Source of the DNA: Paracholeplasma brassicae
GTDB lineage: Bacteria > Bacillota_I > Bacilli_A > Acholeplasmatales > UBA5453
Direction of reading: 5' to 3'
NCBI RefSeq assembly: GCF_000967915.1
Contig: NC_022549.1
Location: 1,228,366-1,292,365, forward strand
DNA length: 64,000 nucleotides
Below are positions 37,137 through 41,509 of this stretch, in pieces. The position numbers and the translations under genes are program-made. The number at the start of each line of letters is the position of its first letter. Position 1 is the stretch's first letter. Under the pieces are notes generated by a model, which was given only the letters and a program-made list of their open reading frames with translations, was not told where the DNA came from and did no database searches.

Positions 37137-37190
37137 AAAAGCCACTCGATTGTAAGAGAGTTTATCTCTTGTCAATTGAGTGGTTTTTTT
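37136..37190. terminator. Bidirectional terminator
   Basis: The arms CCACTCGATTG and CAATTGAGTGG (one mismatch) enclose a second hairpin AAGAGAG/CTCTT and are flanked by A and T runs. Confidence 0.8.
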
Positions 37191-37515
37191 ATTTTTTAAG
37201 AAATACTTCTAGTATTTGTGTCGTTTCTATAAATGCTTGTATCTTTTCTTCTAACTGTATCTTGCCCATCGTAGTGATTGAATAATATTTTCGTTTAACT
37301 TGATTGTTTCCTTCCATCCAATAGGATGAAATCAACCCTTGTTGTTCTAGACGCTTAAAGGCGGTATAAAGCGTCGCTTCCGTTAATTCAAACAGATGAT
37401 TTGAACGTTCTCTGATTGTTTGATTGATTTCATACCCATAGGAATCGCTTTTTCGAAGGATTGACAATATAATGGCGTCCGTATGACCCCTCAGTAAGTC
37501 TCCATATAAGTTCAT
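37189..37515 (-). CDS. PadR family transcriptional regulator
   Basis: A 108-residue winged-helix repressor. The PadR core is clear: LRGHTDAIILSILRKSDSYGYEI, then TEATLYTAFKRLEQQGLISSYW and RKYYSITTMGK. It is short, with only the dimerisation helix at the C-terminus. It lies eight bases after the large membrane protein gene and uses a weak AGGT ribosome binding site in that gene's end. A palindromic operator-like sequence overlaps the promoter of this two-gene operon, so it is probably self-regulating and released by an unknown ligand. Confidence 0.92.
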   Translation of the reverse strand: MNLYGDLLRGHTDAIILSILRKSDSYGYEINQTIRERSNHLFELTEATLYTAFKRLEQQGLISSYWMEGNNQVKRKYYSITTMGKIQLEEKIQAFIETTQILEVFLKK

Positions 37516-37523
37516 ATGCTAAC

Positions 37524-39137
37524 CTATCGATACCTTTTTATTGTACGATATGACAAATAGATTAAACTTGAGGTAATACTAATTAGGACCAAGACAGCTG
37601 CACTTCCACGATTAAACATAAAATACAAATGATCGTCTATTATGAAATTGATTGATAATAAAAAAACATTAAAGACAATCGGTTGTAAACTAAGTAGAAT
37701 TTTATTGTTTCTCTTTAATCCGATTGAGCTTAGAATCAGAATTGATAAAACCGAAACCAAAATAACCCCTGAATAGAATAGATTAGTCTCCATACCGATA
37801 AACGAGTTGATATAACGTGTTGAAATTTCGGTATCTTCATTCATATTTTCGATCGTAATAGGCATAATTGCTAGAATTAAAGTCGGCAATAAGCCTGTTA
37901 CAAGATATAGATAGATGTATTCCATCCGGATGTGTTTGAGGATTGTTTTATGATTTTTAACGAGATACGGTATTATTTTGAACAAACCATAGAACATTGA
38001 TAGGACCCCAGGTAGCAAGACCAGTGCCTGACCAATGATATTAACTGACATCGTGACTTCTTTTGCCGGATTGCTAAGCATGATAATAGAAAAAGACGTT
38101 GTTACGAACTGAATAATAAAAGCGGTTAAAATCACCCAAATGTTTTTGTTCTTCTTGTAATACCATATAAAGGAGAAAATAACTCCAATAGGTCCTATTA
38201 ATAGTAGAAGTCCGTAACCAAATTCCAACGTGATCATTTTAAATATTTGTGTTATAAAAGGGTTATTCCATTGACCACTTTTTGTTTGTATAATCGTATT
38301 TACCAAATAACCAACTGCGTTAATGAAGACCCCAAATACATAAATCAACACAAGATAAATACTATCCATTTTACTATCTTCGGTGTCTTTCATAAAGTCT
38401 AAGGTGTCTTTAAGCTTTCCTTTAATTTGTTTTTCACCAGTCAAAAGATAATACTTGTATTTCAAACGCATGTATATCTTGTATGAAATGATTGTAAACA
38501 CAACAAATGTTAAAACAAATGAAATAATACTAATCATGATGAAGACGCCTACTAGATTTAATAGCTGATCTGGACTTATTTGATTATCAAGCTGCATAAA
38601 GCCTGTTAAAAAAGTAGCAATCGATTGTATGATAACGGCTGAAATGAATGCTAAATTAAAGGTCCAAAATGAAAAACAAGTCTTCATGTATTTGAATATT
38701 TTTCTTAGATACGCCTTATAAAGTTCAATATCCATATCAGCTGACTTCACATGCATGGCTTTTGCATAAAGATAGTAACTCCCAACCGCGTACAGTGAAA
38801 TGCTAAAAGCGGTAAAAATCGCACCAATGGCCCCATTAATTATCAGTAAAATTGTTGAAAATATGGCAAATATGACTGATGTAATCAGTGCATACTCTGG
38901 TAATGCTGGTGTTGATCTTTGAAACTCTAATGGCACATCCTCATTTTGTGGTGCTTGAAAGTCACCCATTGATTTAATTGATTCAACGTAGGCTTTTTCC
39001 TGTTTTTCCCCATCTTCGATCAATGAATTGTAACGATCAATCAAATTTGAAATAATCTCTTCTTTTAAGTCTTCTAACCCCTCTCTATGATCAAATCTAA
39101 AATAGTGGTTAACGTAATTTCTAATTTGTTTTTCCAT
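37524..39137 (-). CDS. Permease-prefix-domain membrane protein partnered with PadR
   Basis: A 537-residue protein. The N-terminal 75 residues (MEKQIRNYVNHYF, then LKEEIISNLIDRYNSLIEDG) match the cytosolic permease prefix domain found in Firmicute proteins encoded beside PadR regulators. The rest has about 12 membrane segments with no known transporter signature. The start is ATG 39137, just after GGAGGG; the longer frame to 39260 runs through the promoter. It is first in the operon and PadR second, the reverse of the usual order. A stress or antimicrobial-response role is inferred from other PadR pairs. Confidence 0.82.
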   Translation of the reverse strand: MEKQIRNYVNHYFRFDHREGLEDLKEEIISNLIDRYNSLIEDGEKQEKAYVESIKSMGDFQAPQNEDVPLEFQRSTPALPEYALITSVIFAIFSTILLIINGAIGAIFTAFSISLYAVGSYYLYAKAMHVKSADMDIELYKAYLRKIFKYMKTCFSFWTFNLAFISAVIIQSIATFLTGFMQLDNQISPDQLLNLVGVFIMISIISFVLTFVVFTIISYKIYMRLKYKYYLLTGEKQIKGKLKDTLDFMKDTEDSKMDSIYLVLIYVFGVFINAVGYLVNTIIQTKSGQWNNPFITQIFKMITLEFGYGLLLLIGPIGVIFSFIWYYKKNKNIWVILTAFIIQFVTTSFSIIMLSNPAKEVTMSVNIIGQALVLLPGVLSMFYGLFKIIPYLVKNHKTILKHIRMEYIYLYLVTGLLPTLILAIMPITIENMNEDTEISTRYINSFIGMETNLFYSGVILVSVLSILILSSIGLKRNNKILLSLQPIVFNVFLLSINFIIDDHLYFMFNRGSAAVLVLISITSSLIYLSYRTIKRYR

Positions 39138-39145
39138 ATGCCCTC

Positions 39146-39204
39146 CATACCTAATCTGTTTATGTATAAATAATATCACTGTCATACCTAATCTGTCAAG
39201 GTAT
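39146..39204 (-). promoter_or_regulatory. PadR operator, promoter and 14-base direct repeat
   Basis: On the minus strand TTGACA (39199-39194) and TATTAT (39175-39170) are 18 bases apart. The inverted repeat ATACCT-N9-AGGTAT (39184-39204) covers the -35. The 14-base sequence ACAGATTAGGTATG occurs twice, at 39183-39196 and 39146-39159, the second copy just before the ribosome binding site. This looks like a two-site repressor operator. Confidence 0.65.
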
Positions 39205-39206
39205 AA

Positions 39207-39240
39207 CAAAAAAAAGAATGAACCAGCCAAAGGGTTCATT
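39207..39240 (-). terminator. Terminator of the rib operon
   Basis: On the minus strand AATGAACC/GGTTCATT (8 bp) is followed by a T-rich run, 24 bases after the stop of the RibBA-like gene. Confidence 0.82.
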
Positions 39241-39264
39241 TTTTCTTCTTTACGATTCAATTAA

Positions 39265-40440
39265 TTAGAAATCAAGCATGTGTCCCATTTTTTCTTTTTT
39301 GGTTTTCATGTAAAATTCATTTTTCTCATTATGATTTAATTGGATTTTCACACGATTTGTAATCTCAATCCCATAGCCTGATAACCCGTGTATCTTTTTA
39401 GGATTATTTGTCATTAATCTAATTTTCTTGACACCCAGTTCTACTAACATTTGAGCACCAATCCCATAATCTCTTAGATCATCTGGAAAACCAAGTGCTA
39501 GATTAGCTTCTACGGTATCAAGACCTTGATCTTGTAGGGCGTAAGCTCTAATCTTGTTAATTAGACCGATACCTCTACCTTCTTGTCTCATGTAGAGAAT
39601 GATACCTCTACCTGCTTTTTCAATTCGTCTCATAGCGGTATGCAATTGTTCACCACAATCGCAACGCTTTGAACCAAAAGAATCTCCGGTTAAGCATTCA
39701 GAGTGAACCCTCATTAACACTGGCTCGTCTGTTGTAACATCACCTTTAACTAAAGCCACGTGATGTTCACCATTCAGTTTATTAATAAATCCGATCATTT
39801 TGAATTCGCCATACCGCGTTGGCATTTTCGCTTCTGCCACTTTCTCAATTAGAATTTCATTTTGGCGTCTTTCGTAAATAATATCAGATATTTTTAATAC
39901 TTGAAACTCTTTTTTTGACTTTTCTAAGTCTTTTAAGAGCACTTGTTGCCCTTTATCATCGGTATTTAAAGAAGCTAAGCAAACCGTAGGTACATTTGCC
40001 ATACGTGCAAGATCAATGATTGCTTCAGCCGGTGCAGCACGTTTTAATAGACCACCTTGTTTGGTTGCTAATAACGGAAATGAGCCTGATAAGTTAAAGG
40101 AATCAAATTTTTTACTTGAATCTAATAATAACTCAATGGTTTCTTTGAACCCCAGTGCCTTGAATCCATGATCGACTTTTTTTGCTGAGATACTTGCGTA
40201 ATCTTCATCGTATTCAAGTGTACTATTTTTCTTAATATTCGTGACTTCACCAAATCGTTCATAGTCCACACAAATTCGAGCTTTATAAGTTAACCATTCA
40301 GTCAGTGCAAGTTCACTAATGTTTTGTCCGAATCCAGCGTAGTACGTTTCATTTTCCAAATTTTCATCATCTACTAAGATAATCTTGTTCTTTTCTTTCA
40401 AAATTGCTAAGCCTTCTTTAACTGTTAAAAACGTAATCAT
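39265..40440 (-). CDS. GTP cyclohydrolase II fused to a degenerate RibB domain (RibBA-like)
   Basis: A 391-residue protein with the RibBA domain order. The C-terminal half (about 203-391) is a canonical GTP cyclohydrolase II: zinc ligands C249, C260 and C262 in HSECLTGD and [20 protein letters not shown]. It opens GTP to the diaminopyrimidinone phosphate. The N-terminal RibB half has lost its active site: DDEDRENEGD is [11 protein letters not shown] (24-34), the essential His of RPGHVFPL is Ser120, and the His of GGHTEA is Pro137. DHBP synthesis is therefore unlikely. Its ATG overlaps the end of the RibD-like gene by four bases. No FMN riboswitch precedes the operon and no ribE or ribH follows. 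Confidence 0.88.
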
Positions 40441-41447
40441 ATGTCTCCCTCTTTTCTTGGCGTGGCCTTGATTATGTAATCACTGCCTCGTTTAATCACT
40501 TTGTTAAAATCTAATTTACAACTTTCTTTTAATGTTTCAAATCCAACACCTTCAACTGCACTTTTTGCAGTCATGCCTCCAATAATGATTGGAGATATGG
40601 TCGAAAACAGTCGATCAAACAAACCACTTTCAATAAATGAGAAGTGTATCGTCGAGCCACCCTCAACCAACATTGAATGAATGCCTTTTTCTTTTAGAAT
40701 TTGAAGGACACGCTTTAAATCTAATGGCTTATTGTCCGTATCTAGTGAAATGACTTCATGTCCTTTTTCCGTTATTTTTCTTACTTTATCGAAGTCAACT
40801 GACTTACTTGTAAAAATGATGGTCTTTGTATGATTTAGTTGACTTAAAATAGGTTCGTTTAAATCGATTTTCAAATCACTATCGAGAACTACTTTAATTG
40901 GGTCTTTTGATTGCCCTTTTAATCGAGTTGTCAACAATGGATGATCAATCATCACGGTATTTATTCCCACCAATATGGCATCATGACTATTTCTAAGTTG
41001 ATGAACAAACGTCCTTGACTTTTGACCTGAAATATACTTTGAATCACCTGTTCTAGTTGCTATTTTGCCATCAAGCGACATACCAAAACTAAGCGTCACG
41101 TATGGTCGATGCTTTAATAAGCCACAATACACCTCATTTAGCTCTTTAAATCTAGGATCATCTAAAAAAAATTGATTTGCGTAATCTATTATTTCTACAT
41201 TACTTGACATGATATAAATCCTGGGTTTATTTAATCTTTTCAAACACTCATTTAGTTTTAAGTTGTCATATAAAAAAGAAACATACAAATCGGTATCTCT
41301 GTCCTGAATCAGGTTCAGTTCATTTATTTTGTAATAATTCAATTTGCCTTGATCGACTTCCAATATTAGAAAATAGGGCGAATCGCTTCTTTCGATGAAT
41401 TGTTTTTTCGTTCTTAAAAACAACGAATTAATAAACTCTTTATTCAC
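40437..41447 (-). CDS. RibD-like pyrimidine reductase with degenerate deaminase domain
   Basis: A 336-residue protein. The C-terminal domain (about 113-330) is a typical riboflavin-pathway reductase: [43 protein letters not shown] and [12 protein letters not shown], which bind NADPH and the ribosyl substrate. The N-terminal 110 residues correspond in length to a shortened deaminase domain, but neither HAE nor the PCxxxGxTPPC zinc motif is present. It should reduce the ribosyl side chain without deaminating the ring, as the fungal and archaeal enzymes do. Translation starts at GTG 41447 after AGAGGGG. First gene of the operon, with a consensus promoter. Confidence 0.85.
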
Positions 41448-41480
41448 TGAATCGCCCCCTCTAGTTAGGTATCTGTCTTT

Positions 41481-41509
41481 ATTTTATCTTAGCATGCTTT
41501 GATAGTCAA
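41481..41509 (-). promoter_or_regulatory. Promoter of the rib-like operon
   Basis: TTGACT and TAAAAT are separated by 17 bases on the minus strand, 34 bases before the GTG at 41447. The short leader leaves no room for an FMN riboswitch. Confidence 0.7.

Follow-up and report, generated by a model that had tools for sequence, protein, structure and literature searches.

A putative riboflavin pathway cut short at a ribitylated aminopyrimidine in Paracholeplasma brassicae, with a possible role in redox defence

The window analysed here, a stretch of 64,000 nucleotides from the genome of Paracholeplasma brassicae, carries on its minus strand two genes related to riboflavin synthesis, encoding a RibD-like protein and a RibBA-like protein. 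The two reading frames overlap by 4 nt (ATGA) at the start of ribA. A promoter-like site and a ribosome-binding site lie 5' of ribD and an intrinsic terminator stands right after ribA, suggesting that the pair forms a self-contained two-gene operon. Promoter-like sites have a high background (22 found versus 25.5 expected), and five terminators were found versus 1.9 expected. The features of the locus are as follows.

41481-41509, minus strand: promoter-like site TTGACT-17-TAAAAT, 34 nt 5' of the ribD start codon, called by consensus match alone
41455-41460, minus strand: ribosome-binding site AGGGGG, 5' of the GTG start of ribD, read from the sequence
40437-41447, minus strand: RibD-like open reading frame, from the sequence and the list of open reading frames
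41112-41447, minus strand: N-terminal 112 amino acids of the RibD-like protein, at the position of the deaminase, with no zinc motifs
41088-41090, minus strand: codon of RibD Ser120, at the place of Lys151 of Bacillus subtilis RibG in the alignment
40437-41111, minus strand: reductase domain of RibD with intact NADPH and catalytic motifs (VEGGS), compared with RibD_C, TIGR00227, TIGR01508 and structure 2azn
39265-40440, minus strand: RibBA-like open reading frame, from the sequence and the list of open reading frames
39859-40440, minus strand: dead RibB (DHBP synthase) half of the RibBA-like protein (R28L, D33Y, H120S, H137P, E158L)
39265-39858, minus strand: GTP cyclohydrolase II half, zinc and active-site motifs complete (Pfam 263 bits; TIGR00505 277 bits)
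39217-39240, minus strand: intrinsic terminator directly 3' of ribA
39199-39170, minus strand: promoter-like site of the next unit, 3' of the terminator

The next unit (37189-39260, minus strand), which has its own promoter-like site and lies outside the rib operon, encodes a membrane protein with permease prefix domain 1 and a PadR-type regulator. There is no ribE, ribH or FMN riboswitch near the operon in the window, as an earlier note on this DNA had stated, and ribE and ribH are missing genome-wide as well.

Alignment of the RibBA-like protein with 22 canonical RibBA proteins indicates that its RibB half has lost the Arg and Asp of the acidic loop (now Leu28 and Tyr33) and both conserved His residues (now Ser120 and Pro137), with the residues and numbering as given earlier. 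The conserved CE pair is also gone (Ser157 and Leu158), and the loop acids Glu29 and Glu31 are retained. The protein scores 49 bits against the ribB model TIGR00506, below the cut-off of 177, and 277 bits against the ribA model TIGR00505, above the cut-off of 206. Its GTP cyclohydrolase II (GCHII) half has an intact zinc motif and RQEGRGIGL, and aligns over the full length with E. coli GCHII (2bz0). Of the two sites of a bifunctional RibBA, the zinc and catalytic motifs of GCHII are present and the DHBP synthase site (Arg/Asp acidic loop, two His, and CE pair) is not intact. The scores against curated models, and the recurrence of this pattern of RibB death among about 20 relatives, exclude chance as an explanation. 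A fusion of a dead DHBP synthase (DHBPS) half with a GCHII half is also found in Arabidopsis RIBA3, the activity of which has been shown by assay (PMC3509567). However, the plant still makes riboflavin through other isoforms, whereas the genome containing the window is without any RibB.

The reductase domain of the RibD-like protein matches Pfam RibD_C (175 bits) and TIGR00227 (207 bits), and its model superposes on 2azn (TMt 0.94, 1.5 Å) and on 6p8c at about 1.5 Å. The HMM scores and alignments thus bear out the reading of the GCHII zinc motif and the reductase motifs as intact. No deaminase domain is recognised by Pfam in the same protein, and the HAE and PCxxxGxTPPC motifs, already reported as lacking, are deleted in the alignment. 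A sequence-recognisable deaminase in the N-terminal 112 amino acids was ruled out, since this segment matches deaminases no better than shuffled controls do. A low-confidence model of the protein superposes on RibG over its full length, a fold match that counts as weak evidence, since deaminases were among the sequences aligned as input to the predictor and confidence in this region is about 40 to 63. With its motifs missing and the N-terminal segment unrecognisable by sequence, the deaminase is better described as gone than as dead; the earlier statement that both second domains are dead stands for RibB and is reworded in this way for the deaminase. A search of plasmids with the RibD-like protein matched ribD-type genes alone.

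The reductase also differs from its relatives at the residue that recognises position C2 of the substrate. Where B. subtilis RibG (PYVTLKAAASLDGK) has the C2-recognition residue Lys151, the alignment places Ser120 of the window protein; Lys occupies this position in 82 of 82 related RibD loci, a set that includes some overlapping copies of one gene. This Lys makes bacterial RibD prefer the deaminated substrate; the corresponding residue is Asn in archaea and Thr in fungi, and the T35K change in yeast Rib7 shifts substrate preference (PMC3631187). The window protein therefore has neither the zinc deaminase domain nor the C2-recognition Lys of a bifunctional bacterial RibD, and has the RibD_C fold with a non-Lys C2 site of archaeal and fungal reductases. 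Its resemblance to the archaeal/fungal RED enzymes (Rib7/ARFC), which are 2,5-diamino-6-ribosylamino-4(3H)-pyrimidinone 5'-phosphate reductases, lies in this residue and in the superposition on 2azn and 6p8c; unlike them, it sits behind a vestigial N-terminal domain, is unstable in trees, and would use Ser, not Asn or Thr. Against the archaeal reductase model TIGR01508 it scores 161.4 bits, below the cut-off of 186.5, versus 117 for RibD of Paracholeplasma vituli. From sequence, the loss of the deaminase appears to have been accompanied by a change in the reductase that fits the use of an un-deaminated substrate. Ser120 in place of Lys and the TIGR01508 scores lend support to the earlier proposal that the pair may make the 2,5-diamino-6-ribitylamino intermediate, in the fungal/archaeal order.

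The genome containing the window is a single contig of 1,877,792 bases and is 99% complete; the genus also contains P. vituli (G016, locus L090). Family-by-family searches found no RibH, RibE, or second RibB in it, with controls positive in 11 to 14 of 14 reference genomes. Two other matches to the deaminase family were found, one scored as TadA and one of the dCMP type that resembles a match present across relatives. With neither RibE nor RibH encoded, the riboflavin pathway is incomplete, and hidden riboflavin genes were rejected on the basis of these whole-genome searches. The claim that the product is not riboflavin withstood the search, as the set of genes that would contradict it (ribB, deaminase, ribE, and ribH elsewhere) was sought genome-wide and not found. 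The genome has one FMN riboswitch, 92 kb ahead of the window; it precedes an ECF importer, suggesting that riboflavin is most likely imported. The ECF S-component behind the riboswitch (L209:2306-3040, minus strand; G000:C1:1135306-1136040) is near the cut-off of the "MPN527 family", and this suggests that the family is a riboflavin importer.

Homologues of the pair are present in 29 of 150 genomes of the order, and several relatives are without the genes altogether. In most homologues the RibB half is clearly dead, by differing changes. Context clustering identified a tight operon, gpx-ohrR-ribD-ribA(dead RibB)-HAD phosphatase, at 13 loci in Acholeplasmataceae, with gaps between genes of mostly a few bases. 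It comprises a glutathione-peroxidase-like gene, an OhrR-type regulator with the reactive Cys, and a ribD with an intact deaminase; beyond gpx, ohrR, and HAD, the operon has no companion gene that is conserved across genera. The closest solved structure to the regulator is B. subtilis OhrR (1z91/1z9c), and TTGATAAAATTAAATTGAATACAATT, or a close variant of it, is common to the gpx promoters and contains an OhrR-like dyad, AATTG-N-AT-N-CAATT. The OhrR core is reported to be AATT-N-AATT in a study where an OhrR homologue controls gpx (PMC4999210). The arrangement resembles the OhrR/OspR-gpx peroxide regulons, in which a repressor of the OhrR family adjoins, and probably controls, a glutathione peroxidase gene (PMC4999210), but riboflavin-pathway genes in such a regulon were not found in our literature search. 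Mean identity in the truncated clade is 40% between RibB halves and 87% between GCHII halves, versus 72% and 75%, respectively, in canonical proteins. The suggestion that homologues share the same double degeneration holds for RibB, which is degenerate across Acholeplasmataceae, and fails for the deaminase, the RibD form without it being found in the genome of the window alone among 13 genomes of the family.

Several loci depart from the 13-locus arrangement. Two near-complete Acholeplasma genomes, G021 and G070 (L085 and L087), have the dead-RibB cyclohydrolase alone, with no operon partners and no RibD anywhere in the genome. Genomes G095, G138, and G147 (L194, L195, and L004; 80% to 99% complete, 2% to 4% contamination) have the truncated OhrR-type operon and a separate ribE-ribBA-ribH operon without an adjacent ribD, so that their sole complete ribD is that in the OhrR operon. 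In G095, ribE has an FMN riboswitch in front of it. These three genomes may have regained the synthesis of riboflavin around the truncated pathway. Locus L092 (MKRK01000240.1), filed under "Clostridiales bacterium 43-6", has a ribA*-HAD pair 98% and 90% identical to Paracholeplasma relatives and is probably a mis-binned contig. At L075:11300-20000, and at the same place in L076 to L082, a conserved set of genes comes after the truncated operon, encoding a 2Fe-2S protein, flavin oxidoreductases, and an L-glutamate gamma-semialdehyde dehydrogenase. This gene set resembles a proline/hydroxyproline catabolic cluster and occurs in one genus; it was set aside, not being conserved outside that genus.

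The HAD phosphatase connects the truncated operon with ordinary riboflavin synthesis. Used as a query over 84,980 species, it was found as the last gene of ordinary ribD-ribE-ribBA-ribH-HAD operons in Clostridia, Carnobacteriaceae, Izimaplasma, and others (L106, L110, L112-L115, L117, L118, L128, L137, L140, and others). An FMN riboswitch stands in front of five of five canonical HAD operons tested and of none of four OhrR-type loci. Since HAD closes canonical operons under FMN-riboswitch control, it is very probably the pathway phosphatase, and the family is a good candidate for the dedicated 5-amino-6-ribitylaminouracil 5'-phosphate phosphatase, which has not yet been identified in most bacteria (PMC12051542). 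The truncated operon evidently derives from the canonical FMN-riboswitch operon ribD-ribE-ribBA-ribH-HAD. Comparison of the two indicates that the Acholeplasmataceae operon keeps precisely the genes reaching 5-amino-6-ribitylaminouracil (RibA, RibD, and the phosphatase) and has lost exactly those that serve riboflavin only, RibB by mutation and RibE and RibH by deletion. The truncated form shares the RibD and RibBA proteins with the canonical Firmicutes operon, as well as HAD in the relatives, but lacks RibE and RibH, has a dead RibB and no riboswitch, and in the relatives stands behind an OhrR-type promoter with gpx. Some Oscillospiraceae RibBA proteins flagged as degenerate by motif were treated as canonical in these comparisons; their operons contain ribE and ribH, and the one examined in detail keeps both His residues.

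The window pair stands apart from the clade of its relatives. In free trees, the truncated clade forms one group (97 to 100), with the window pair placed elsewhere, close to Clostridia. A grouping of the pair with the clade gave AU p values of 0.12, 0.65, and 0.33, so that a common origin of the pair and the relatives' operon is not rejected. The window RibB keeps Glu29, Glu31, Cys57, and Asn72, which are kept by none of 14 clade members, and is without other residues that several clade members retain. These different losses suggest that RibB was inactivated at least partly independently.

Regulation differs as well. In the genome of the window, gpx and ohrR lie side by side in divergent orientation, about 113 kb from the rib operon, with OhrR-type boxes of 26.6 and 19.8 bits between them, and ribD-ribA neither adjoins them nor lies behind such a box. 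The best score of a box scan 5' of ribD is 10.8 bits, no better than chance (11 to 17 bits), and the scan thus gives no support for OhrR control of the window operon. Insertion-sequence transposase genes lie directly behind gpx (L192:8262-9865), and their insertion is a possible cause of the separation of gpx and ohrR from the rib genes. A dedicated HAD phosphatase was not found in this genome (best match 49 bits, versus more than 350 in relatives), and the product may therefore stay phosphorylated.

We propose that the window operon is a riboflavin pathway cut short and kept to make a reducing ribitylated aminopyrimidine, probably for peroxide or redox defence, a reading in which our confidence is evenly balanced. 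Judging from its intact motifs, GCHII would open GTP to 2,5-diamino-6-ribosylamino-4(3H)-pyrimidinone 5'-phosphate. The reductase, with intact motifs and Ser120, would then take this un-deaminated compound and convert the ribosyl to a ribityl group with NADPH. No enzyme would lead onward to riboflavin, flavin being imported, so the pathway would end at a ribitylated diaminopyrimidine that oxidises easily. The oxidisable 5,6-diamino pair is present in both the 2-oxo and the 2-amino form, and a role as reductant would thus tolerate loss of the deaminase. In sister species the truncated pathway, with its deaminase and phosphatase, would end at 5-amino-6-ribitylaminouracil (5-A-RU), encoded in an operon with gpx and OhrR, and the window species would have a shortened, differently regulated version of the relatives' system. 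Given the neighbours in relatives and the chemistry, the most likely role would be that of a reducing metabolite in peroxide or redox defence. This is consistent with the reported instability of 5-A-RU in air and its proneness to oxidation (PMC5798775), and with the place of E. coli ribA in the SoxRS regulon (PMC6092379). The distance to gpx and ohrR, the missing OhrR box and phosphatase, and the lack of RibD in G021 and G070 would speak against such a role in the window species. More tentatively, and with somewhat less than even confidence, we extend the proposal to the family: in Acholeplasmataceae a peroxide-responsive truncated riboflavin pathway may make a reductant (5-amino-6-ribitylaminouracil or its 2-amino analogue), and in one species the reductase may have been re-tuned to skip the deaminase.

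The main rival explanation is that the cyclohydrolase mainly cleans the nucleotide pool under oxidative stress by hydrolysing 8-oxo-GTP and 8-oxo-dGTP, with the reductase and phosphatase disposing of the product. E. coli GCHII, encoded by ribA in the SoxRS regulon, hydrolyses 8-oxo-dGTP (PMC6092379), RibA is the one constant member of the system (G021 and G070 have it without RibD), and the neighbouring OhrR and GPx fit a role in oxidative stress. However, the reductase has been kept, as have the deaminase and phosphatase in relatives, and the apparent substrate-matching change in the window reductase would be unexpected in a mere disposal enzyme; we consider this explanation unlikely. There is a modest chance that the pathway instead feeds another dedicated product, such as a lumazine, a deazaflavin, a toxoflavin-like or vicine-like pyrimidine, or a signal, through an unrecognised enzyme. 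Products of GCHII are diverted in known cases: faba bean VC1/RIBA1 leads to vicine, and thus to pyrimidines with redox-active breakdown products (PMC12202586), although this plant protein has both domains, the enzymes downstream of it are different, and no ribityl compound is made. With no consuming enzyme conserved beside the operon, one could be encoded elsewhere, but the same absence of conserved genes beyond gpx, ohrR, and HAD across genera counts against a dedicated product. F0/F420 was excluded as an end product (CofH/FbiC in 0 of 32 genomes), as was Chlamydia-type folate synthesis via GCHII (FolK in 0 of 23 genomes, FolE absent in 22 of 23). Within the earlier idea of a dedicated pathway to a pyrimidine-like or pterin-like product, a pterin for folate is therefore unlikely.

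The operon could also be a decaying, functionless relic of riboflavin synthesis, as the loss of RibB, the deaminase, RibE, and RibH, the import of riboflavin, and the complete absence of the genes from several relatives might suggest. We regard this as improbable, because the GCHII half is strongly conserved (87% in the clade; 76% between the window and a Lachnospiraceae homologue) while the RibB half drifts freely, the reading frames, promoter-like site, and terminator are intact, and the loss of RibB function, at least partly in parallel, left the rest in place. It is very improbable that the genome has an ordinary riboflavin pathway whose parts are scattered or unrecognised. The separate ribE-ribBA-ribH operons of G095, G138, and G147 could use RibD of the truncated operon, but in the genome of the window no RibE, RibH, or intact RibB was found by searches with positive controls, and an importer behind an FMN riboswitch is present.

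A dead DHBPS half with an active GCHII half (RIBA3) and the diversion of a GCHII product (vicine) are already known. New, as far as the literature was searched with incomplete coverage, is a riboflavin operon that stops at the aminopyrimidine stage and is associated with OhrR and gpx; within the same coverage we found no report of OhrR with ribD or of 5-A-RU as an antioxidant. The lineage constitutes a natural experiment, in which the same pathway has been truncated with losses of RibB that are at least partly independent and in which the substrate order of one enzyme appears to have shifted through a change in a residue that was known beforehand to determine that order. If the proposed role is true, intermediates of vitamin B2 synthesis would be end products with a redox role, beyond their known place on the way to flavins, deazaflavins, and MAIT-cell antigens, and the small-molecule reductant would be a type of bacterial antioxidant for which our searches found no earlier description. 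Bacteria that do not make riboflavin would still make compounds of the 5-A-RU type, which would change how the potential for MAIT antigens is read from genomes.
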